The translations under genes and the position numbers were made by a program. The notes under the pieces were generated by a model. It made no database searches. It was given only the letters and a program-made list of their open reading frames with translations, and was not told where the DNA came from. Positions 605-24,800 of a DNA stretch of 26,791 nt are shown here, piece after piece (position 1 is the stretch's first letter; each line of letters opens with the position of its first letter). The DNA comes from Haplosporangium gracile (lineage: Eukaryota > Mortierellomycota > Mortierellomycetes > Mortierellales > Mortierellaceae), in assembly GCA_015499985.1 (NCBI GenBank), contig JAAAUF010000472.1, forward strand, positions 5,118 to 31,908, read 5' to 3'.

Positions 605-3069
<2,465 letters not shown>

Positions 3070-3478: not shown

Positions 3479-4289
3479 TCTTTTCTTTTCTTGCTTGATG
3501 GTGACAAGGATGAGTGGAGTGTGTGGTGGGAGGGAGTGAAGAATGGAAAAAAGGGAGAAGAAGAGAAAAAGGAAAGAGAATGAAAAGAGGCCAAATGATA
3601 TCTAAATATCAATGCCATTCACGCATCCTTGAAAGAGACAAAGAAAGAAATAAAAAAAACGGCACAATAAGAGAAAGAAGAGAAACGCAGAAAGAAGAAA
3701 GCATGTCCTGTTCAGGCGTGAAAAAGAAAAACAGAAGCTGGGGTCCATGCCCTACGAGGGTCTCTCTCGATTGGATCCAAATTTATCACTTCAAAAAACT
3801 AAAATTTAATTTCTGAGATGTCAACTTCAAACATCAGTCATCAAAGGTGATGGATTGGATGGTACCTGACTGGCGGTACCCAATGAGCGCCGAGCCTGCC
3901 CCTCTGATTTCACTATATACCACAAGACACCATAGGGAGCATCGTCCATAGAGGTGACAAAGGTCACCGGCCCGGGGGAGTACCGCCTTCTTTGTCAGTC
4001 CGGTCATCGTCAACCAAGGACCATTGCCTATCCCGTTTCTTCTATTGTTTATCGTGATTGTTGTTGTTATTCTCATCACCCCTAGCATAGTAGCCCTTCT
4101 ATTCATGCTCCGTGTGCATGGCACACATAGGACATCATGAAACATCTTTGTGAGCCATCACCCCCTTGTTTGTTCGTTCATTCTTCTTCCTTCTTTTTTC
4201 CACCCCTGCCCTTTGCCCTTTGCCCACTGCCGCACTCATTATCATAACAATAATAAACACCAAGGCGTCCTCTCTCGCTCTTTGCTCTC

Positions 4290-4335
4290 TCACACACACG
4301 CACACACGCACACACACTCACACACACGCACGCAT
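4290..4335 (+). repeat. (CA)n-rich microsatellite
   Basis: An interrupted CACACACG/CACACACA repeat lies in the presumed promoter or 5' UTR of the UPF0598 gene, about 185 bp before its ATG. An open frame runs through it, but its composition is not protein-like. Confidence 0.9.
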
Positions 4336-4519
4336 CACAGCCAACCATCTTCTCCGCCACCAACCAACCTTCACTCCCCCCTTTCCTTTTCGTATCAGTC
4401 TGTTCTATCCCCTCTCCAAGGCTTCCCTTACTTGGCTTTTACAAAACAAAACAAAAGCAAAGCACAAGCACAAGCAAAAGGCTCAATCGACAATCACTCC
4501 ACCCTCAAACCATACCACA

Positions 4520-5371
4520 ATGTTCTCCTCCAGAGCCATTGCATCAACAACTGCTGCTGCTACTCGTGCTCATCGACCCCTGGGTCTCATCACCCGCACT
4601 CTTCTTCCTGCTTCCACCCGCACATCACCCTTCTCCATTCATCGCCGCTCTATTCACACCACCCAAAACAACACCAGCGACAGTGACCATGATCCAATAT
4701 CCCTCCACGACCGAGGAATAACACCCTCTCCTACCACACTCTCTCTCCTCGCCTCTAAAAACATTCGCCCTTACTTTTACTTTATCGACATCCATGGCCA
4801 AGTATTCCTCCAGGACACCACTCCCAAGAATTTTACGTCCTGTTACAAGGATCCTAAATTCTTGAATTTCTTTATGACACGGATTCGACCGAACACGACG
4901 GGGTATTTTGGAAAAGAGTATGCCTGGCAGAGTCCTTGTGCAAAGGAAATCAACTTTGTTGAGGCTGCTGATACCCCTGTTGTCTTTCATGGTCTTATTG
5001 ACAATGGTAACTTATTCGCATCCCTTGAAGAAACCTCAAACGATATCTTCAACTATTTCAATATTTGTGTTCTCGACATCGTAGTAATGCGCATTTCTTG
5101 ATTGCAAATATTAGAACAACTGGTATGGGCAGGGAACTTGCAAACACCCTTCCAGCCAGACAAACTCAGCGTCTCTCTGTCTACAGGAAGAATATATCAT
5201 CCCTTACCATCCATCATGGTCCAACCATGCAGTTCTGATAAGGACGGAAACCCACTCCCATCACTCGGACTCCTCAAATCCTCACTTGTCCTCACCGAAT
5301 TCGCGGCCCTTCTCGACTATGATTCTTTCACCTGGCAGGGTAAACAGTTTCCTGTTCACCACGTTCCATAG
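4520..5371 (+). CDS. UPF0598 (C8orf82-like, DUF4505) protein, probably mitochondrial, 2 exons
   Basis: Exons 4520-5006 and 5115-5371 join through a 108-nt GT-AG intron (phase 1) to give 247 residues. The match to the UPF0598 family is by recognised motifs: YFYFIDIHGQVFLQDT (about 85-100), then KNFTSCYKD, a FFxxRIRPN segment, SPCAKEINF, PVVFHGL, and RIYHP in the second exon. The human protein has the same order (YFYYID..G.LFL.DT, NFTTCFKD, LRPN, SPCGRERNF, PVVF). The first 48 residues are rich in Arg, Ser, Ala and Thr and nearly free of acidic residues, as expected of a mitochondrial presequence. The biochemical role of the family is not known to me. The ATG at 4520 was chosen because it begins the presequence; the frame is open further upstream, but that stretch is microsatellite-derived. 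An AATAAA lies 32 nt after the stop. Confidence 0.9.
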
Positions 5372-6394: not shown

Positions 6395-9300
6395 TTATGA
6401 GGAACTAAGAGCTTTACCACGTCGAGCTTCAGGCGTCTGAGAGAGATTGACATCACTCCAATGTGAATTAGATATGCCCGGATTTGTGTACATTCCACTA
6501 CCACCACCGCCCGGTGTCGTCGGCGCAAAGGCACCCAATTCTCCACCTACACCACCTACACCTCCATCTCCACCTCCAAACATATCCATACCTCGATACC
6601 CATACCCCTCCGCGAATAATCCAACCGGCGGCTGCGACATAACAAGCGGAATAGGAGGAGGGAGAGCAACCCTTTTGGTCCAATGTCTCAAAAACACGCG
6701 TTCGACCACCACAAACACAATCACCAACAACACCCACCCGGCCGCAATCCATGCCAACATCACCTTGGGCCCTCCTCCAGCTCCACTCATCACCATCCAT
6801 GTACCCCCCTCACCCTCGCCCATCTTCATATGCGGCGCCATCACCCATCGCCCTATATTCTCTCGATGCCGTTCTCTCTCGGCCTTGTTACCACTCCCGG
6901 ATTTCTTTTCGAGGACAGAGGAGTAGGGACAGAGAAGGGCGACGAGGAGGGAGGCATAAAGGACACAGGAGAAAGAAAACGTCCGCCAGTAGTTGATCTT
7001 GTTCCAGTAACATGGCTTCATCCGGATCGTATAACACGCCATCGCCAACATGATCCCAATCGACATCAGACCCCTAAATCGTCTCTGCGCAGGAGACTGA
7101 ATCAACAAGAAATCCACCGCCAAAAGCAGACCGAGGTTCTTGAGCACCGCTACTCCATTGGGTCGGAAACAAATCTCCCCCTTTGCAGGGACGCGTTCAA
7201 AAGATGTTAGAAAGACCATAAACAGGACGTACGCGAGGGTGTAAGCGAATAAGCTGGCGGTGAGATAGAGTGCTGGTTCGACGAGGGGTCCGGTACAAAG
7301 GAGAGAATTTGCGGAAGGCGCTGCGACGGTTGAAGCGGGATCGAGGAGGGTCATGACGACGAAGCTGAAGATTCCAGTTGCTTGGATTTTTGTGCCATGC
7401 CCTTCGCGGCGGGCTTGCTCTTGTTGTTGGGCGTATTTTTCGTGTGCGTAGGCGTGGATTGCTTGGGATTGGCATGCTGCTGAAGACAGGAACGTGCTTA
7501 GTATTGGCAAGTATAGGACACTCTATACACAGGAAAAATAATAATAAGGAGATATGCTTGTTGTTTAGTCGAGACAAACAAGTCAAACAAACGTCCTATT
7601 GCCAATGCCAACCACAAGAAGAAAAAAAAGCAGAGGATGTTACCACGACGGGGATGAAGCAGCTGACCCAACCGACAGGAATAGCGTTCCAATGCAGCCG
7701 TCCTCCACGTCTCAACCGTCGACACCATCGGTTCCAGGTATGGATACCCAAAGCAAGGAACCAACCAAATATCACCACCGCAAAGCAGCTCCAGAACCGC
7801 AAGAGATACCAATCATGTGTGTTGATCGACGGTTGCAAACCCAGACTATTTACTACCTGCATCACTATATCGCTGTCCCCTCCACTGTTACTGTTTCGAC
7901 CGGGGATCTTGTCCGTTGACGACCTTGTGGTTCTTGGGTCGCCGCCTACGGAGAGGGTTGTTGTATTTGAGGCTGTTGAGGAGTTGGTGCCTCCGAACCC
8001 TTGCAGGGCAACACCGACAGCCGCATGGATGAGGTTGTCCCGGAGCTCTTCAAACCGACCAGACTCGAGCCCGTTCATGGTGTTGTTGTCCATCAGCGCC
8101 GTTATGTTTGGCAGCCAGGAATGCAAGTTCCCCTTGATCCAGTCAACCGAGGCCCCCAGCTTCAGTTCCTTGTCATCCTCGTCATATTGATTCAAGACTG
8201 TTGATGCCGACCCAGCTGCTCGTACGGCATCATCTTCAGAAATCTTCAGCGCAAATGTAGGTCTCTCAGATGACTTTTTGTCCTGTGTCGAACTGTTCCT
8301 AGGGTTAAAGTCGAATAACGTGTTATTGCCGATCGACAGAATCCCGTCCTTGTAATGAATCCCTGACCCACCACTACCGCCGCCTGCTCCCGATGCTGCT
8401 GCCGTAGACACTGTCCCATCTCCCGTGTTGGCCGTCGAATTAGTCGCAGTCGTCCTAAAGACTTCAAGGATCGTCTTGGCACCCTCATACATCGCGCTCG
8501 TCTTCTCGGCCTGGTTATAAAACTCCATCAGCTCTCGAAGCGGGAACGAAAACAGCTGTAGGAACTCGATGATCAGGATTCCGACTTGGAGGTAGTTGAA
8601 CCAAGCCAGGAGGGACATTGTTGCAAAGTCGGGTGCATTGTCGTCGTCGTTGGTGGCATTGTCAGCGCCAGTACTGGTGGCGGTCTTCTTCTCGTCTGAT
8701 GAGGGTTCCTTTGTGGAGTGGTAGGTCGAAGTTTTTTTAGGTCTTGGGCCTCCTGCAGCTGCTAGGGTTGTTGGTAATGTTCCTGCATGTGGATCGGTAC
8801 TGTTAGCGCTGGTACTGGTGCTGGGTGTGTTTTTGATGGGCCTACCGCCACCAACTCCTGCTCCTATCCCAGCGATTCCTGCTGATGCGCTGGTCTGTGC
8901 GGAGACTTGATCTGTCGTCGTAAACTGCTCAACTCCCTGTGCCACTGCTTGGTGAAGATGCAGATCCTCATAAAAGCCGCGCTTGCCCTCACCAAACCCT
9001 TCACCATTCCCCTCGCTCTCCTGTTCCTTACCGCCAACAACAGCCTTGCCCTCTAAATCATATTTACTAACATCCTTGACCGTCTCCATTGGAAGCATCA
9101 TCCTTCCTCTTATTAGCTCCTGCGCATACCTTCTCCTCCTCCCAAATACCCGCTGTCGGACCAACACAAACCCATTAATCCCCACAATAAACACAAAGAT
9201 CCCATGTTCCATCAACTGGTCCACGAAATCATGTATCCCCAATGCAGCCTTCATAATATTCGCCACAATCGTGTCCATCAGACTCGCCCCTTCCTCGGGG

Positions 9301-9956
9301 TCAAACGTCCATGGTGTCGTGTTGGCCGAATTGTCATGAACCATGAAGCTTGCGCAGATGATTAGGCCCGCCCCGACAAAGACACAGCCGATCAAGCACC
9401 AGCCTACGACGTACTCCCACAACTTCTCGGCGACCATGTGTTCACGATCAATCCTGGTCCCGGTTGTTGGGTCGGTATCTGAGGAAGAAGAGACTCCTGT
9501 GTTCCCGGCCCTGTTAGCGCCATTGTCGTTACTCGTAACGACTAAGGTAGCTGGATCCTCGGGTTGTTGACGCTGATACCTTCTCCACAACTCATCCATC
9601 GCCATCTCTTCATCATACTCCCCACCACCACTACCTTGTCCACTCCCGCTCCCACCACCACCATCAGCATCCTCTCGAGTACTCTCAATACAATGCTGCT
9701 TCCTCTTCTGCGCCGTCTGTCGTTTCCGCATCTTAACCCTCCGCCTACAAGGTTGCAGCCCCTCCACAACACACCGGCCTTGAGAAGTCATAGTCTCAAC
9801 CAACAGATCTGCCTCGCTCTGGGCTTTCAACCATTGTGCCAGTCGTTGTGAGGGAGGTGTTGTCCGGCGACTGAGAAAGATGTAGAGAAGAAAGGTAGCC
9901 AGGAAGAATATTACTACTAGGAAAAATAGTAAGATTGTTAGGTGTGAGGTTTCCAT
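6395..9956 (-). CDS. large multi-pass membrane protein, family not recognised, 2 exons
   Basis: Exon 1 is 9956-7644 (771 codons, ends in phase 0) and exon 2 is 7522-6395, separated by a 121-nt GT-AG intron. The product is 1146 residues. Hydrophobic segments are seen near residues 5-28, 183-206, 250-268, 448-470, 718-740, 757-785, 820-831, 855-878, 895-912, 921-936, 950-970 and 1024-1047. This suggests about twelve membrane passes grouped toward the C-terminal half. Between them lie a Gly/Ser/Asp linker (98-115), a long Ser/Thr/Ala-rich stretch (345-445) and a segment rich in NxS/T sites (about 500-710), so large soluble loops are likely. The tail after 1060 is Pro/Gly-rich, encoded by a CCACCT-like repeat near 6539-6590. 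Joining at the acceptor before 7522 restores a continuous hydrophobic helix across the junction, which supports the splice. I cannot name a family. A 56-nt alternative 3' intron (6417-6362) would change the last residues and move the stop to 6342. Confidence 0.8.
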
Positions 9957-10530
9957 CGAGGTAGTAGTAAGAAAGGTAGATTGTTAAGAGAAGGAAGAGT
10001 AAGGGTATATATGTATCTGAGAGGAATTTGAGATAAAGAGTGAAAAAGGATAATCTGCCGCTGTTTTAAAAAAGAGAAAGGAAGGGTATGTCAGGGAGAG
10101 GGCGAAATATGGGGCGACAGGGTAGAGTTGAAGAAATGAAAAGGAAATGAGAAAAGGGGAAAAAAGGGCACTGAAAGGAGTTTTTTTTCGTGTAAATTCC
10201 CAATGCTCCTGAACGCGCGCTAGATCCGTCAGATGTGGAATAGGGACAAAAGCAATCTGTACGCCAAATACTTCGTACCAAAGGGCAGCGTAACCACAGG
10301 AAAGAAGGGCGTAACGAAAAGAAAAAGGAGTACGGCCGAGAGAGGTACCCACTGCAGAAAGGGGGAGACGAAAAAACGCGAAACGGTTGACTTTATTTGT
10401 TTGTAGAAATGTGTCAATGGAGATGGTGTCTCCGCATTATTATGGACAAAGCGAGGAGGCCAGGCACAATTAGACCATGGATACGTTGTATGTGTTAAAA
10501 AAAGAGTATCTCCAAAAGGTATGAGGGAGG
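9957..10530. promoter_or_regulatory. upstream region of the large membrane-protein gene and 3' flank of VPS20
   Basis: No gene is seen. On the - strand a TATATA-like element lies around 10006-10013, about 50 bp before the membrane-protein ATG. AATAAA on the - strand (TTTATT at 10392-10397) lies about 135 nt beyond the VPS20 stop and is a candidate polyadenylation signal for it. ORFs here are Phe/Ser-rich translations of CT-rich sequence. Confidence 0.45.
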
Positions 10531-11665
10531 CTATGCCAGCATAGGTTCGTTTGCCGTCTTCTTGTTCTTTCCCGCCACTTTTTTCGTAGGAACTAGCTCC
10601 TCATCTACGTATGTTTGATAAAATGAAAATTGCGATTAGTGTCCATGTCTCCTGTTCTTATAACCAACAGCATAGTGACCGATGAGACCTTGGGTGACAT
10701 ACCTTCTTCTACTGGTTGTTGTTCGAGTTCTGGCAGTGCGCTCACTGGTGTGTTTGGAAGCAACGCCTTTGTCTCCTCCTCCTATCGTACACAACATTGA
10801 TAGAGAGAAAGCAAATATGTTAGCCATCCTCCTTGAGACCCACAGGAATAAAAAAAAAAGATCCATACACCTGTCCAACGACCATAGCCTCTCCTTCGAT
10901 CTCTCTCTCTCTCTCTCTATCCCGAAACTTACGACCATAAGATCCAACTCCCGTTCGATATCCTCCTCTTCAGCAACAGAGAGTCGTGTACTCAGAAGTT
11001 CATCAATCTCATTCTGGTACGCAATACTATCCGCAGTCTCGTCCATCAACTTCTCAACATCAGCCAACGACATTTCCTTATGCAGCTCTTTCAGAACCTG
11101 GTTTCCTGCTGCCAGTCCTGCAAACACTTGCTTCTCCACCATTGCCTGCTCAATCGACATTGTCTTTTGTTGTTATTAGAAAAACAAGAAAAAAAAAGAA
11201 GAGAAGAGAGTGTTAGCTGTTATCGGATATGGTTGTAATGCAATGATAGGAACATGAATGAAAAACAAGATATATATATACATATATGGACTTACCAATT
11301 CGTCTAGGTTGGTCATTTGGAGGACAGTCTTTTCGAGAAGGGACTCCTGGAACTTTTTGCGGCGGAGGGCCAAAAGGGCACGCTGTTTCTCGCCCTTGGC
11401 CAGATGACTCTTTGCCAGCTTCAGTTCCTTCTCCACCACACCCTCGAGCTATGTCGATTAATACAAGAGCGACAATAGTGAGAAGAGGAAGTTAGAGATG
11501 GAATAATAGCTTGAAAGGTAAAACCAATTGATGTGATGAGAAGAGACTTGTATTGCGTACTCGTTTGTTGTATTGCCTCAGCTTATCTCGCTGCACTTTG
11601 AGGTCGAGGATGGCCCGGTCATGGGCTGTAATCTTGGATGCTCCCTTGGACGACGAACTTCCCAT
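10531..11665 (-). CDS. VPS20: ESCRT-III subunit Vps20 / CHMP6, 5 exons
   Basis: Exons: 11665-11561, 11448-11296, 11163-10933, 10781-10703, 10604-10531. The first three end in phase 0. The product is 213 residues, close to human CHMP6 and yeast Vps20. It starts MGSSSSK, an N-myristoylation motif (Gly2, Ser6, Lys7) typical of this subunit. A basic coiled helical hairpin follows (DKLRQYNKR; LRRKKFQESLLEKT), then the Snf7-family core EKQVFAGLAAGNQVLKELH and an acidic region with DETADSIAYQNEIDELL. LLPNTPVSALPE (170-181) has the spacing of a MIM2 motif that binds the MIT domain of Vps4. Known role: Vps20 is recruited by ESCRT-II on endosomes and nucleates Snf7 filaments for cargo sorting and membrane scission. 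Intron 3 carries a CT dinucleotide run (about 10900-10918 on the + strand). The gene is divergent from the phytochelatin synthase fusion. Confidence 0.95.
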
Positions 11666-11835
11666 TGCGTTGGTGTATAAAAGGAGTGAGTAGATTGTTG
11701 CTACTGCTGCTGTTGTTGATGTCGGAAAGATGGTCAATTCGCTGTTGGAGAGAAAGGAGAGTGAGAGCGAGAAGAAGAGGAATGCCAAGGGCTGAAAAGA
11801 GTCTCCTTGAGTATGCACGCCATGGCTGTATATTC

Positions 11836-11843
11836 CACGTGAC
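11836..11843 (-). promoter_or_regulatory. GTCACGTG E-box (Cbf1-type bHLH site)
   Basis: A perfect GTCACGTG on the - strand lies about 210 bp before the fusion-gene ATG and 170 bp before the VPS20 ATG. In yeasts this octamer is bound by Cbf1, which with Met4 controls sulfur-amino-acid genes. That would suit a glutathione-consuming enzyme, but no binding can be shown here. Confidence 0.4.
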
Positions 11844-12000
11844 GGATGGACGCATTGGTGGCGTGTCTTAACGTTGTTCCTGAGGCGTGGGTGCGGGAAT
11901 AAAAAAAAATACAAGAAATGCGACGTTTTGCATGAGTCTCTTCTCATCCAACTCCATCTTCTACCCGACCTGATTCAACTACACAAACTCGCATTCAGCC

Positions 12001-12027
12001 CCACCTCACCTCACCTCACCTCACCTC
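12001..12027 (+). repeat. (CTCAC)n pentanucleotide repeat in the leader of the fusion gene
   Basis: About five tandem CTCAC/CACCT units end 25 bp before the ATG at 12053, in the presumed 5' UTR. Confidence 0.85.
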
Positions 12028-12052
12028 AAAAAGCAAGCACCTTCCAGGAACA

Positions 12053-14119
12053 ATGCCACCAATCGTGGTCAAACAGGACTTACTGTCCGACATTACCCCT
12101 CTCCGTCCACCAGCACGCAACAACGACTTTACAACCCTTGCTAAGGCCCGTCTCGGAACCGACAACGTCCTTTTGCAACAGGCCAAACACACCAACGGAT
12201 GTGGGCTTCGAAGGGACATGGAGACCTGGTTGGATACCCTCGATTCGCAGTTGGATAATAACCAGCAGCCGCCTCAATTGGTCCGTGTCCGCGGTATTCT
12301 GGAGAGTCATAGCGATAGCAAGAGAGGAGGATGCGATGCGATGTCGACGGGGTTTGTCCCTGGTTCTGTCGCGGATTCGTATAGCAGTGTGGAGAGACCG
12401 GTCTTTGTGGTGGATTACTATGAGCGAGGATCACTTCGCGATAGCCTTGACAAAGGCGACTTTCTGATGACAGCGGCGACTTTTCAAGAAGGAGTAGCAG
12501 GAAGCGACAACCAACAAACTGAAGCCAAGAGCTGTTGGAAGAGCAAGATTGCGGTCCTGAAAGACATTGCAACAGCACTTCACTATGTCCAGTGTCACCT
12601 TCCCGATCAGCAAGTCGGCTCCTTGTCCAGCGACACCATTTTCCTTGATGCCAACCGGCGTGCATTCCTCTCATGGCATGCCTCACGCTCTCACCGTCGA
12701 GACTATACCTTGGGCCGCACACACGCCTGGCGATTCCTCCCACCAACGACACTTCTCCAATTGAAGAATACCCTGAACCAGGAGCCAATAGCAGAGGATA
12801 TCTCGGTGGAGCAAGATGATATGTACACATTTGGGACCTTGGCTTGGGAGATTGCGACGGAGGAACGGCCCTTTGAGAATATTGATACCCCCGTGTTGGT
12901 GCGGCCTGAAGATATGGCACATCGGTTCTCGAAGGCCCCACCTCCGCGTGTGCTGAACTTGGTCCGCCAGTGTATTCAGGCGGACAGGACAAAGAGACCT
13001 TCTTGGTGTGCGGTGTTGACGATTCTGGATGAATTGGATCCTGTTACCTTGGAAGACGACGCCGATACTGCTTCCAGCCTCAACAACAGCGACCTTATCC
13101 GGGAGCCATCTACCGACAGCACCGCAACAACAGCAACTTCGTCCCTTACGGCCTCCACGACAGTGACTCTCACTCGCGACCCATGCCATCCAACAGCGCT
13201 CTCAGACGACAAGACAAAAGTCGTCGAGATGATGGAATCCGTCCTCGACTCGACCTTCTACCGTCGAGACCTTCCTGCTCACCTCGACAGCTTCACCAGC
13301 CTACGTGGCAAAAAGCTCTTTCAAGAGATGATTGCCGCAGGAACAGGAGAATGTTTCTTCCGCCTTTGCACATCCTTCAACACCCAAAGCGACCCCGCCT
13401 TCTGTGGTGTCTCCTCTCTCTCAATGGTCCTCAACGCCCTCGAGATCGACCCCCGTCGACAATGGCGAGGTGTTTGGAGATGGTACTCGGATGAACAACT
13501 CGACTGCTGTACCTCGGTCGAAGTGATGAAACAAAAGGGCATCACGTTCAACCAGTTCAGCTGTCTCGCCCGCTGTCACGCCAAAGTCTCTGCCAAACGC
13601 GCCGACAGGACGACGATTGAACAGTTTCGACAGGATATCAAACTCGTCTCCACATCGGATCAGGTCCATATGGTCCTCTCATTTTCGAGAGCGGCATTGG
13701 GACAAACAGGATCTGGCCATTTTAGTCCCGTGGGTGGGTACCATGCTGACGAGGATAAGGTCCTAGTCCTGGACACCGCCCGATTCAAGTACCCGCCTTT
13801 CTTTGCGACCGTTCAAGAGCTCTGGGAGTCCTTGTTGCCCGTTGATCCCGAGACGGGTGAATGTCGTGGCTACTTCTTAGTGTCTGCCACCTCTAGGCAG
13901 AAACTTGACATCCAGCGCAAGAGGCTTCAAACTGTCATTGGCATTGGCAACGGCGATATCACATCCACGGCATCCTCGTCCTCAGTCTCCTTGCCTTCGC
14001 AAGCGGATCTTTCTTCCCGCTCCTCCTCCCCGTTCCCAGGACTGGGGGCCGACCTTGTAGATACTGAGCCCACTGCTGCAGACGAGCACCATGACTGTGA
14101 TTGCGACTGCAAGCCATAA
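12053..14119 (+). CDS. pseudokinase-phytochelatin synthase fusion protein
   Basis: A single uninterrupted exon of 688 residues. Residues about 30-330 read as a kinase fold: a hinge-like VFVVDYYERGSLRDSL (117-132), a loop VGSLSSDTIFLDA (188-200), DMYTFGTLAWEI (256-267) matching helix F, and DRTKRPSW (311-318). The catalytic loop is broken: HRD is VGS (188-190), the loop Asn is T195, DFG is WHA (208-210), and no VAIK lysine is seen. A Ser/Thr-rich linker (340-385) leads to a full phytochelatin synthase domain (about 400-615) with C451 in PAFCGVSSLS, H556 in GSGHFSPVGGY and D574 in LDTARFKYPP. The spacing (105, 18) is almost that of Arabidopsis PCS1 (C56, H162, D180). Such enzymes join gamma-Glu-Cys units from glutathione into metal-chelating peptides. 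The tail ends HHDCDCDCKP. The kinase half is therefore probably regulatory or a scaffold. The ATG follows a clean leader, and both halves share one frame without a splice. Confidence 0.93.
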   Translation: MPPIVVKQDLLSDITPLRPPARNNDFTTLAKARLGTDNVLLQQAKHTNGCGLRRDMETWLDTLDSQLDNNQQPPQLVRVRGILESHSDSKRGGCDAMSTGFVPGSVADSYSSVERPVFVVDYYERGSLRDSLDKGDFLMTAATFQEGVAGSDNQQTEAKSCWKSKIAVLKDIATALHYVQCHLPDQQVGSLSSDTIFLDANRRAFLSWHASRSHRRDYTLGRTHAWRFLPPTTLLQLKNTLNQEPIAEDISVEQDDMYTFGTLAWEIATEERPFENIDTPVLVRPEDMAHRFSKAPPPRVLNLVRQCIQADRTKRPSWCAVLTILDELDPVTLEDDADTASSLNNSDLIREPSTDSTATTATSSLTASTTVTLTRDPCHPTALSDDKTKVVEMMESVLDSTFYRRDLPAHLDSFTSLRGKKLFQEMIAAGTGECFFRLCTSFNTQSDPAFCGVSSLSMVLNALEIDPRRQWRGVWRWYSDEQLDCCTSVEVMKQKGITFNQFSCLARCHAKVSAKRADRTTIEQFRQDIKLVSTSDQVHMVLSFSRAALGQTGSGHFSPVGGYHADEDKVLVLDTARFKYPPFFATVQELWESLLPVDPETGECRGYFLVSATSRQKLDIQRKRLQTVIGIGNGDITSTASSSSVSLPSQADLSSRSSSPFPGLGADLVDTEPTAADEHHDCDCDCKP

Positions 14120-14798
14120 AAAAAATTCGCCATTTTATGAGATTATTTTTATTATTTTTATTATTATTTTTTTTTTGTAGTGGACTACAATGGAAACTAT
14201 TTGTTTAAAGAGGTGACAGAATAATCTATGCAGGATTTACAAAGAGGGAAATGGGAAAAGGAAAGGGAACGACAACTGTAACAGCAGTCATACATGATAG
14301 CCAGCAGCAAGAGAAGGAAAGACATGGATGAAAAAAAAGGGGGAGGCGTTTAGTCGACAACGGACGATAAAGAACGAGTACAAAAACATCGGAAGTACCA
14401 AAAACTCGCCTCCTCAACTCGTCCAAACAACATCGCGCCAACGAACACAAAGATATTTTTTTTATCATTTGCACATTTTCATGATCAACTTGACTATGGA
14501 TGTATCATCGGGGCGTCTTTTTCTCCTTGAACAACTTACTTTGCAAATAGAACATCTCCTTTTCAGTTTCCGAATCCCAGGGCTTCCGGCGTATGTGTAT
14601 GTAATTCCTTCAAATGACCTAACAAATGATGTCCATTTTGACTACTTCGCGAAGCCTTGAACTAGGCATGCCACAATAGACCAGCAAACAGACAACATTA
14701 TTTCTGGTCAACTCCCAACAGCGAACGAACGAAACAACAACGTGATATAAAAAGAAGAAAAAAAAAAGCATTTTGAATACAACTTAAAAAACCCCCTT
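14120..14798. other. convergent intergenic region with AT-rich tracts
   Basis: It lies between the 3' ends of the fusion gene (+) and the poly(A) polymerase gene (-). The first 60 bases are T/A-rich (TTATT units and a T10 run) and probably form the 3' end of the fusion-gene transcript. No gene or RNA is recognised in the rest. Confidence 0.5.
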
Positions 14799-17592
<2,794 letters not shown>

Positions 17593-19784: not shown

Positions 19785-21503
19785 ATGCCAAAGGAAAAAA
19801 AGACATCAGTCAGCAGCAAGGTACTCCTCCAGCAAACTCATTCGCCTACATCACACCCCCTTGTGTCGCGGAAGAGTGAAAGAATGAAATGACAGCCAAG
19901 AATAACCCCGTCAACAAACACGCATTCCCTTCAACCTGATCTCTAGCCTGAGAGGCTCGTCCTGGACTACATGTCCAAGCAAAACCGACCCTATAGCGTC
20001 AGTAAGTCAACTCTCCCATGCGCGCTTCCTATTTCTTTTAATACAAGCACGCTAGATACAAACTTACGTTTCATAGCAACATTGACACCCATGCGCCCTT
20101 TCACCATTTTTGTGCCCTATGGTTCTCCTACAGCGGATATTGTCACCAACCTCCACGCAGCAGTCACGAAGACAGAATGCCAACGCGCTGTCAATTCGCT
20201 CGTCGACAAGGAGCTCTTGACCTCAAAGACCTTTGGCAAGCAAACCATCTACGTCGTCCGCCAGGTAACTATCTCATGTGCATCTAAACACGGCTATCTC
20301 TCTCTTCAGCACCTCAATATGCCCCCTCCCTAGCATGCGTCTATTTTATCTATGCCACCTCATGACATTTTTTTTTTTGCATTGGCCATCGAAAGGACAC
20401 GATAGAAACGGTCAAGCCTGATGAACTCGCCTCAATCGACAAGAGACTGGCCCAGCTCCGGGAGACAATCGCTGAACAAAAATCAAAACAAAAACAGCTC
20501 TTAGCAGGTACAACCTCTTTTTCCTAGGGTGCCATCATTTAGTGCACTCAGTCTGACTCGCTGAACGCCTAGGCTGGCAGACTGATAGGCTGACTCCCTC
20601 AATTTGATTTGTTATTCGTTGTGATAGAACTCGCGTCACTTAACTCTGCGCTGACAACGGAGGAGATTGAGCATAGACTGGCCATGTTGACGTCAAAGGT
20701 GTGTCTCATCCCCCCCCCTGCTCACGCAACCCATGATCGATGCGTCATCCATGCAATCTTGAAGCGAGAATAACGTTTGACATTACGCCCAAGACTAGAC
20801 ATAGTGTTGAAACTAATTGCTTCTATCCTTAATTTGTCCTTGATGCGTAGAACGAACAATCTGAGGAACAACTTGTCCTATTGCGCTCTGGGTCACAGTT
20901 GGTCCCAGTCGAGGAGAGGCAGCGAGTGACTCGCGAGATGGAGACTCATCGAAAACTATGGACCCAGAGACGACGACTGGTACGTGTGCCTGATCTCTAA
21001 CAACTACAACTATGGGGTTGATACACCTCCTTCCCCCTCCCCTTGCTTTTTTTTTTATTGCTTCTTTCAATTTTCTTTGGTACAACTAACGTTGAGCGAG
21101 GGGGTTGTGTGGGGCCATGGATTTTTTTCTCTCGTTATGTCTCGAACGTCTCGTATATAGTTCAAGGATATGTTCTCGACTGTCACTGAGAACCTTCCAG
21201 GAAAACCCAAGGAGTTGCTGGTAAAAAAGTCCGCATCATAGTTGTTGAAACAATTGAGCATCAGGTCGACTAATTGCCGCTTCATGGTCGTCTCCATCTT
21301 TAGTTTCTCCGTTCTTATGCTCGGCTTTTCGTTGTTGTCGTTTATGTTGTTGTTAGACTTGTTGTGGGTGGAGTAAAGGGCAAAGGTATCTGATCTATGG
21401 TACAATCTGTTGCTTTTGCTATGCCATTTAGGAAGAATTGGACATCTCGCTGGATGACCCTGTCGATATCAACATCAACCCAAGAGACCTTCTTTCGACA
21501 TGA
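19785..21503 (+). CDS. HOP2: homologous-pairing protein Hop2 (PSMC3IP/TBPIP family), 8 exons
   Basis: Exons: 19785-19820, 19947-20001, 20134-20264, 20396-20507, 20628-20698, 20851-20979, 21161-21220, 21432-21503. Phases agree and give 221 residues; human PSMC3IP has 217. The N-terminal winged-helix domain (about 13-75) contains LVLDYMSKQNRPYSV, a TECQRAVNSLVDKELL helix and FGKQTIYVVRQ. A coiled coil follows (about 82-145) with LNSALTTEEIEHRL, which matches the human LSSALTTPEM segment. The C-terminal part has THRKLWTQRRRLFKDMF and ends in the acidic EELDISLDDP. Known role: Hop2 with Mnd1 stimulates Dmc1/Rad51 strand invasion and homologue pairing in meiosis. The small first exon (12 residues) is kept because its donor and phase fit. 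All introns are GT-AG, 120-211 nt. An AATAAA lies about 165 nt after the stop. Confidence 0.94.
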
Positions 21504-21865: not shown

Positions 21866-24800
21866 TTACTTGAGCTCCTCAACGACAGTAGACTTCTCCG
21901 CGAAAGAGGAGACGACAGCGGTCATGACAGCGACCTTGCGGACCTGGTCAATGGATTCCCAGACACGCTTCTGCTGGAGGTCAGCGGCATCACGCTCAGC
22001 CAACTTGTTGCGGCGGGTGCTAGTGGGGACCAACTTGGCGGTGAGCTTGAACGACCAGCGCTTGAAGATCTGGACCTTGACGACATCCAAGAAGATGAAG
22101 TACACGAAGGAGATGAGCAAGACGACGATGGCCTCACCAGCAGGGACCTTGGGGGTAAGACCACCGAAGATAACCATCAACAAGGCAATGATCTGGGTAC
22201 CGATAATGACAATAGCGAAGATGGGCGAGGGAAGGTTCTCCCAGAAGTATCCAGTCAAACGGGTGGAGAAGATGACGAAGTGAGGGGCGGATGAGACGTG
22301 GAGGTACATGATCGACTCAAGCTTGCGGTCTGCATCAGGGACCTTCATATCGTCGGTGACATCATCACCGTGGGGCGAGTTAACGGGTTCGTAACCGAAA
22401 ACCTTCCAGAAGATGAAGAAGTGGGCAAAGGACAAGGCGCAGAGGAGGGCTCCGAGGACGATGGACATGGTGATCAACTGACCGATTCTCCACTTGTCGG
22501 GGTGCTGGGAGATCTGGGCGTTATCAACGGCAATGACCAAGGTGGCGAGATCGTTCAAGATGCAAATCAAGATGAGCAAGTAAGGGGGGAGGCACCAGTC
22601 GTAGGCCATGACGACAACGAAGAAGAACATCAAGAAGTGGACGGTCGAGGTAATACGGTAGAGGGCATAGGAACGCATGCGCTGGAAAATGGCACGGGAG
22701 GTAACCAAACCGTCGACAATAGTTGACAAACCGGGAGCGAGCAAGACAATATCGGCGGCAGAGCGGGCAGCGTCAGTGCATCCGTGGACAGCAATACCGA
22801 CGTTGGCCTTCTTGAGGGCAGGGGCATCGTTGACACCATCACCAGTCATACCGACAAGGATACCACGCTTCTGAAGAAGCTCAACGACGCGGTACTTGTG
22901 CTCGGGAATAACGTGGGCGAAACCATCGGCGCGGATAACGTGCTCGGTAACCTCATCCTCGGACTTGGTGGGGTCAACCAAATGACCAGCATCCAACATG
23001 ACACGCTGCATACCGAGACGGTGGGCAACCTCCTTGGCAATAATAAGCTGGTCTCCGGTAATCATCTTGACGGCAACACCCATATCGTTACAGCGACGGA
23101 TGGTCTCGGCAGAGTCAGGGCGAGGGGGGTCAATCAACGAGATCATACCGATGAGCTCCCACTGGTCCATGTTACCCTCAACAGTGCGGGCGACACCCAA
23201 GGCACGGAGACCACGCTTGGCAAGGCTGTTAACGGCACGGACGGCATCATCATCACCACCAACGAGCTTGATGATGACCTGGGGGGCACCCTTGGCGACC
23301 TTAAAGGTAGAGTTGGTGGTGAGGTTGGTGATGGTAGCCTGGGTGAGCTTGGTCGAAGGGTTGAAGGGCAAGAAAGAGGTAACCTTGAAGCCGGGAACCT
23401 CGTGCTTGTGGGTACGGCCCTGGAGAATAGCGAGCTGAGCCTCGGCAGCGGTACGGACGGCAAACTCAATGGGATCGTTGGCACCAGCCTCAGCGGCGAG
23501 GTAGGAGTACAAGAGGATGTCATCGGAGGTGTAGTTGTTGGAGAGGTAGGGCTCATCGAAGGTCAACTCGTTGAGAGTCAAAGTACCGGTCTTATCGGAG
23601 CAGAGAACAGAGACGGAAGCCATCTCCTCGACGGCTGTGAGACGCTTGACAATAACCTTCTTGGCGGCGAGCTGCTTGGCACCGACGGCCATGGTGACGG
23701 ACATGACGGTGGGGAGACCGACGGGGATGGCAGCGACAGTGAGGACGAGGACTTGGCCAAGGACGACAAGGAACCTGCCTTTGCGGTTACCATGGAAGTG
23801 GACGAGCTGGTAGATCATGATGATGAGGACGAGAACGACGGTGATGAGGATCAAGAAGTTACCGATGCGGTTGATGATCTTTTGGAAGTGACCCTCCTCG
23901 GTGGTAATGGAGATGAGGTTGGCGGCACGACCGATGAAGGTGTCACCACCGGTCTTGGTAACGACAGCCATCTGCTGGCCCTGCTTGACGATGGAGGACG
24001 AGTAGACGGTCTTGCCCTTGTTCTTGGCGACGGGGAGGGACTCTCCGGTCAAGGCAGACTGGTCAATCAAGAGATCACCCTCGGTGGCCTCACCGGTGGC
24101 ACCAATACCAAGAAGACGACCATCGGCGGGGATAATGTCACCGAGACGGAGGACAATAATATCACCGGGAACCAAGGCAGAAACATCCAACTCGACCAAG
24201 TGGCCGTCTCTCCAGCAGCGGGTCTTCAAGGCAAGGGTCTGACGAAGGGCATCCAAGGCAGATTCGGCCTTGGCCTCCTCAATGAAACCGATACAGGCGT
24301 TGACAATCAAAAGGGCAAGAATAATACCGAAATCAAGCCAGTCCTTGACGACGGCAGAAATAATACAGGCGACCTCGATCAAGTAGGCGATGGCACCGGT
24401 GAAGTAGCTCAAGAACTTGAGCAAGGGGTTGCGCTTGACCTCAGCGAGCTCGTTGGGGCCGAAGCGGGCGAGACGCTCAGTGGCCTCGGCGGTGGTAAGA
24501 CCGTGCTTGGGGTCGGTCTTAAGGAGAGCCTCGAGCTCGGGGGAGATCTCGTCGGCGTGCTCGTGGTGCTCGGCTTCCTCAACCTGGAGGTCACCCTTAT
24601 GTTGGGGTTCTGTGAGATGGACATGAATAAGGATAAACAATGATTAGGAAACAGGTTCTTTTTTTTTAAATAGCAATAATAAAAGGGGGTCTGTCTGCGC
24701 AAGGGATGTGTTGGGATGAAGGGTTGTTGGCGGGTTTGATGTGGTGCCTGGGGATGATGATGTTGCAGCTGCTCGTGTGAGATTGACCCTGATACTGCTT

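Follow-up and report, generated by a model that had tools for sequence, protein, structure and literature searches.

Does this region of the Haplosporangium gracile genome encode a true fusion between a kinase-like domain and a phytochelatin synthase (PCS) and, if so, what might a kinase that lacks its catalytic motifs do for such an enzyme? The question is raised by a gene at 12053..14119 on the forward strand of a 26,791-nucleotide stretch of DNA (hereafter, the window), which we read as a single exon of 688 codons followed by a stop. The first in-frame ATG, with an A at position -3, lies at 12053, after an in-frame TGA at 11933-11935, and the stop codon is at 14117-14119. The sequence surrounding the gene (11001-15200) is free of N. 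When the bases of the stretch were shuffled, 0 of 2000 shuffles remained open, the longest open run among them being 272 codons. The two halves are fused in one open frame, as the original prediction had claimed; the one-exon structure is our reading of that frame, based on its openness, on the shuffles and on an intron scan. Codon log-odds, calculated with one reference frame, give the reading frame first place over residues 1-340 only and not in the linker, the PCS or the tail, and were therefore not counted as evidence.

The C-terminal half corresponds to a PCS catalytic domain (residues 402-607, 13256..13873, forward strand), identified by a PF05023 match, alignments and a structural model. 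The match (E 1.5e-79, 266.6 bits) is above the curated cut-off and extends over profile positions 1-210 of 210. The catalytic residues C451 (13403..13405), H556 (13718..13720) and D574 (13772..13774), all on the forward strand, were located by alignment with homologues, and the same residues are found in 14 of 14 alignment rows; they align with the triad of Alr0975 and of 13 bacterial homologues (13 of 19 bacterial PCS loci were taken into the alignment, all 19 being used in the tree described below). The triad is thus intact, as predicted. The further claim that the synthase is complete holds for the catalytic domain, but not for the C-terminal extension, which is present in a paralogue of the same genome and absent here.

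Functional positions of AtPCS1 were placed by motif spacing, AtPCS1 itself being unaligned, and 11 of 13 are identical in the fused protein. By this spacing, T444, Q445, R546, Q551, R577, K579 and Y580 correspond to Thr49, Gln50, Arg152, Gln157, Arg183, Lys185 and Tyr186, which are treated as functional in passages of PMC3855540. Both differences lie in B-loop 1, where Glu52 corresponds to D447 and Tyr55 to F450; the second-substrate site (Gln50, Tyr55, Arg152, Gln157, Lys185, Tyr186) accordingly keeps five of its six residues, F450 being the exception. In passages of the same study, AtPCS1 Y55F has roughly two thirds of the activity left; E52D is described once as comparable to E52A (very low) and once as having near-normal Vmax and a doubled Km for glutathione (PMC3855540). 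Taking into account the residual activity of Y55F and the conflicting reports on E52D, we consider it likely, but not certain, that the PCS half is catalytically active.

In the structural model, the blocks of the PCS domain reach pLDDT values of 74-98, except for residues 471-490, whose two blocks have values of 50 and 65. The modelled domain superimposes on solved Alr0975 (6th5_A), the primitive PCS of Nostoc (NsPCS), with an rmsd of 2.0 over 216 columns and 30% identity. Fold and triad are common to both proteins, whereas Alr0975 lacks a kinase-like half and has an Asn four residues before the Cys, where the fused protein has a D/E-type residue that creates a CK2 context. That context, [ST]-X2-[DE], is formed by T444-Q-S-D447 (T444, counterpart of AtPCS1 Thr49 by motif spacing, at 13382..13384, forward strand) and is found likewise in the paralogue. 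Eukaryotic PCS (AtPCS1, SpPCS), the paralogue and the fused protein all keep the counterparts of Thr49, Gln50, Cys56, Arg152, Gln157, His162, Asp180, Arg183, Lys185 and Tyr186.

Beyond the PCS core there are some 70-80 residues, closing with HHDCDCDC-KP. Phytochelatin_C (PF09328), the C-terminal domain of plant-type PCS, has no match in the fused protein at E up to 1. The short His/Cys tail HHDCDCDC (residues 679-686, 14087..14110, forward strand) may possibly be a metal ligand. The plant enzymes have a C-terminal domain (passages of PMC9917255) and the paralogue a long extension, whereas the fused protein has this short tail and a pseudokinase in front. Such a domain does not define the PCS family as a whole, being absent from the cyanobacterial forms (passages of PMC9917255).

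The N-terminal half includes a kinase-like domain at residues about 22-333 (12116..13051, forward strand), delimited by profiles, alignments and a kinase-guided model; its securely homologous part, from alphaE to alphaI (residues 160-328, 12530..13036, forward strand), was established with Pfam, an own-genome profile and shuffles. Among the families named in the original prediction, PF07714 is above its cut-off on the 688-residue protein, as is PF05023, and PF00069 is below. PF07714 matches residues 244-322 with 36.4 bits (cut-off 23.1), covering only profile positions 174-255 of 258; PF00069 gives 17.7 bits on the kinase-like half (cut-off 31.7). We also built profiles from kinases of the same genome (30 loci, L013-L042), of which 10 entered the full profile and 9 the C-lobe profile, picked by eye; the N-lobe profile had 19 rows, two short ones having been removed. 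The profile of 10 aligns residues 160-328 with 25.7 bits (28.2 for the sequence). The C-lobe (residues 151-340) scores 33.6 bits, the best of 1000 shuffles (640 scored) reaching 9.3, and the N-lobe (residues 16-150) scores 11.1 bits, the best of 1000 shuffles (616 scored) reaching 5.5. The N-lobe match is limited to the beta5-hinge-alphaD words VFVVDYYERGSLRD (residues 111-138), and residues about 85-112 form an insert with respect to the own-genome kinases. As judged from these scores, kinase homology is secure for the C-lobe and weak for the N-lobe. A PDB sequence search returned TKL and tyrosine kinases (MLT/ZAK at 3.5e-7, CTR1, ILK) matching residues 160-331 or parts of them, and the conserved C-lobe words DMYTFGTLAWE, RPF and KRPS remain in the kinase half.

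As predicted, the alignment with own-genome kinases places V188-G189-S190 at the HRD motif and T195 at the catalytic-loop Asn (12614..12637, forward strand), and the VAIK lysine is absent, its place falling at about Q42; that of the alphaC Glu falls at about D55. The replacement of DFG by WHA stands in part. The equivalent lies within S207-W208-H209-A210 (12671..12682, forward strand) and has no Asp, but its register varies: it is W208-H209-A210 if ungapped, S207-W208-H209 when HMMER aligns the protein to MLT, and W-H plus a gap in both alignments with the own-genome kinases. A MAFFT alignment with viral-contig kinases (11 of 17 loci, redundant or partial ones having been dropped) proposed D217-Y218-T219 as DFG, which is disfavoured by its spacing after the catalytic loop. 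As the VAIK lysine, HRD, its Asn and DFG are all lost in a domain homologous to kinases, the N-terminal half is, by its sequence, a pseudokinase of the TKL type. The sole NCBIfam match, a bacterial defence kinase, was rejected as an identity (19.7 bits versus a cut-off of 460).

When 11 kinase rows serve as a guide, the model adopts a kinase topology (pLDDT 58.3, pTM 0.56). Kinases account for 50 of 50 matches listed by Foldseek and for 50 of 50 by VIA, which re-aligns the matches of Foldseek. Among the Foldseek matches listed, rmsd values are 11-14 A and TM values 0.37-0.48 by query length, so that this model backs the topology more than an accurate shape. In the model obtained without kinase rows no kinase is seen, and 313 of residues 1-380 are in segments under pLDDT 50. 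As the topology came from the kinase rows and confidence is low without them, a kinase fold of residues 22-150 is only probable.

A parent of the kinase half was sought among the own-genome kinases and none was identified, the nearest scoring 18.5 and 18 bits against residues 1-340. The genome contains at least 152 PF07714 matches, counted by exon. Two of its TKL-like kinases (L020 and L021) have HRQ or HRH for HRD and Ser for the catalytic-loop Asn, DFG being kept. With so many kinases, partly decayed ones included, a ready source of decaying TKL domains would be at hand in the same genome.

PF05023 matches two genes in this genome (37.5 Mb, 1157 contigs). The second, recognized by its PF05023 match, is an ordinary PCS paralogue (locus L004 3482-5728; contig C226, about 31.0-33.2 kb, reverse strand). 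Its PCS core is interrupted by two GT-AG introns (208 and 101 bases), as read from the sequence, and its 645-residue product gives no kinase match. The triad is kept; the C-terminal extension, which is long, carries a CCC word close to its end and matches Phytochelatin_C below threshold (15.5 bits against a cut-off of 25); by eye, its N-terminus resembles a mitochondrial presequence. The PCS cores of both proteins are 58% identical over 237 residues. In the tree they are sisters with respect to the 19 bacterial sequences (support 100/99, with a long-branch warning); as these are the only fungal sequences in it, this placement leaves the duplication undated.

The explanation that we put forward, and to which we assign an even chance, is that the gene is a true fusion derived from a duplicate of an ordinary PCS, having gained a pseudokinase that serves as the regulatory end in place of the C-terminal extension; the direction of this change is one that we infer. 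The C-terminal half would be a PCS-type cysteine transferase, in which glutathione acylates C451 with gamma-Glu-Cys, to be handed on to a second glutathione. The N-terminal half would be a decayed TKL-type kinase, incapable of phosphate transfer by the usual chemistry. This pseudokinase would most likely act as a switch to which a partner docks, making PCS activity depend on that partner. In the most testable version, the partner would plausibly be a kinase with T444, next to the active site, as its target; alternatively, the pseudokinase would hold the enzyme at a cellular site. In the original prediction, the dead kinase would sense a ligand, nucleotide or partner and gate the reaction, a role that is conceivable.

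According to passages of PMC9917255 and PMC11314372, plant PCS is activated by metal-glutathione, via the C-terminal domain; it is also activated when CK2 phosphorylates Thr49, which precedes the Cys by seven residues. Passages of PMC9917255 and PMC3855540 state that this phosphorylation raises the activity of AtPCS1. Pseudokinases acting as allosteric parts or switches are described in passages of PMC10211241. More tentatively, the dead kinase may have replaced the C-terminal metal-response domain as such, coupling thiol-chelator synthesis to a protein signal (a partner kinase, phosphorylation of T444) instead of, or besides, metal; both PCS genes would then split metal-driven and signal-driven synthesis. 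It counts against a regulatory pseudokinase that cyanobacterial PCS are functional without a C-terminal domain (passages of PMC9917255), so that the absent extension may need no substitute. If the regulatory explanation is correct, the fusion would be a direct genetic link from signalling to metal chelation, would make the steering of PCS by phosphorylation testable in one polypeptide, and would bring a papain-like transferase into the range of enzymes for which control in cis by a pseudokinase is assumed.

A close second to the regulatory pseudokinase is a kinase half that is a mere passenger, that is, a fusion relic that folds or half-folds and regulates nothing, the PCS half alone acting as a second PCS. 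We regard this as possible, if less probable. The loss of every catalytic motif, an N-lobe that is hard to recognize and the lack of any apparent intron in the fused gene, versus two in the paralogue, are all consistent with it. Against it, the kinase half is still open over about 330 codons, with a GC3 (per 50 codons) of 0.44-0.64 versus 0.60-0.64 in the PCS core, and has conserved the C-lobe words cited above.

A further alternative concerns the other half, which might hydrolyse glutathione or gamma-Glu-Cys instead of acting as a synthase, or might be a homologue without enzymatic activity; the fusion would then be a signalling peptidase. The changes to D447 and F450 in B-loop 1 and the missing C-terminal domain match point in that direction, and the active Cys has been lost in four PCS-like proteins of Mucoromycotina (PMC4410428, section 9). 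Against this, the triad is kept, and so are the second-substrate residues R546, Q551, K579 and Y580; we consider this alternative rather improbable.

It is less probable still that the fusion is only apparent (two neighbouring genes, an unrecognized intron or a join made in assembly), or that an in-frame intron alters the kinase half. The halves are connected by a Ser/Thr-rich linker (residues 334-401, 13052..13255, forward strand), and between them there is neither a stop codon nor an N; a scan of 13073-13236 for AATAAA, TATAAA and TATATA words found none. The frame was scanned for introns with donor words loose enough to recover both paralogue introns. Weak pairs do exist: 16 with GTA donors, none of which touches residues 329-401, and 9 with GT[AG]ANT donors, 4 of which touch residues 371-432. 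All 4 are frame-shifting, however, and would cut the PCS core. As for the in-frame GTA-donor pairs (several within residues 81-187, one at 257-312, one at 486-572), they would take out the kinase-like hinge, alphaE, C-lobe words or the PCS core rather than inserts. Moreover, the frame contains no GTAATT, the donor word used by the two introns of the paralogue, and it stays open as a whole. Finally, nucleotide binding or phosphate transfer by the N-terminal half via migrated residues, of the kind known in some pseudoenzymes (passages of PMC10211241) and with K45 (three residues away from where the VAIK lysine would be) and D217 (a little beyond the DFG position) as candidates, is very improbable given that the HRD Asp, its Asn, the DFG Asp and the Gly-rich loop are all absent together.

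According to the original prediction, known PCS carry a C-terminal Cys-rich domain and are not known to have a kinase-like partner; the lack of such a partner agrees with the open literature surveyed, at the level of titles and abstract openings: no description of a kinase-PCS fusion was found there on PCS and kinases, on PCS in Mortierella, Mucoromycota or early-diverging fungi, or on fungal pseudokinases. The word "kinase" is absent from the literature passage surveyed, in which an N-terminal partner could have gone unseen. According to passages of PMC10318531, where PF05023 is fused its partner is usually Phytochelatin_C. As far as searched, the fusion gives a known enzyme a new architecture; instances that are unpublished or recorded in databases only may well exist.

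For the 19 bacterial PCS loci, the frames from stop to stop measure 236-362 codons, and no more than 120 codons precede the match, which leaves too little room for a kinase; within the frame, a kinase-PCS fusion is thus ruled out for 19 of 19. Viral contigs, searched with pattern scans that pick up only close relatives, gave no confirmed match for the fused protein or the PCS alignment, and neither did prokaryotic contigs scanned with the fungal PCS core alone. Three bacterial PCS (L076, Sorangium; L077, a Pseudomonadales MAG; L078, Paucibacter) group with both fungal ones (support 100/100), possibly reflecting transfer between domains, and have a Glu four residues before the Cys, as in eukaryotic forms; the other 16 rows, apart from this group, are 12 cyanobacterial and 4 from Pseudomonadota.

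In EDR1-type plant proteins the kinase is active and C-terminal. Their papain-like domain is PF14381, which has no match in the fused protein at E up to 1, whereas that of the fused protein is PF05023. Both nevertheless unite a papain-like fold and PF07714, a TKL kinase, in one protein; in passages of PMC10318531, EDR1, a different papain-like family, is described as often fused to PF07714. The C-lobe is homologous to those of the TKL members CTR1, MLT/ZAK and ILK, and MLKL is among the Foldseek matches of the kinase-guided model; compared with TKL kinases and pseudokinases, the fused protein stands apart by the loss of all catalytic motifs at once, by the N-lobe insert mentioned above and by its papain-like transferase partner.

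Around the fused gene, the window contains a kinase gene in several exons (646-2100, reverse strand), with Pkinase matches of 72.6 and 59.7 bits in two frames and of 18.6, below the cut-off, in a third. Neighbouring exons match DUF4505 (4154-5101, forward strand), Snf7 (10636-11172, reverse strand), poly(A) polymerase (15325-16800, reverse strand) and TBPIP/Hop2 (19947-20333, forward strand), and a 795-codon open frame (7596-9983, reverse strand) gives no Pfam match at 0.01. The only ion-related neighbour recognized among the 20 frames scanned, of 53 in the window, is a P-type cation ATPase frame (21866-24643, reverse strand; E1-E2_ATPase, 154 bits; Cation_ATPase_N, 55 bits).
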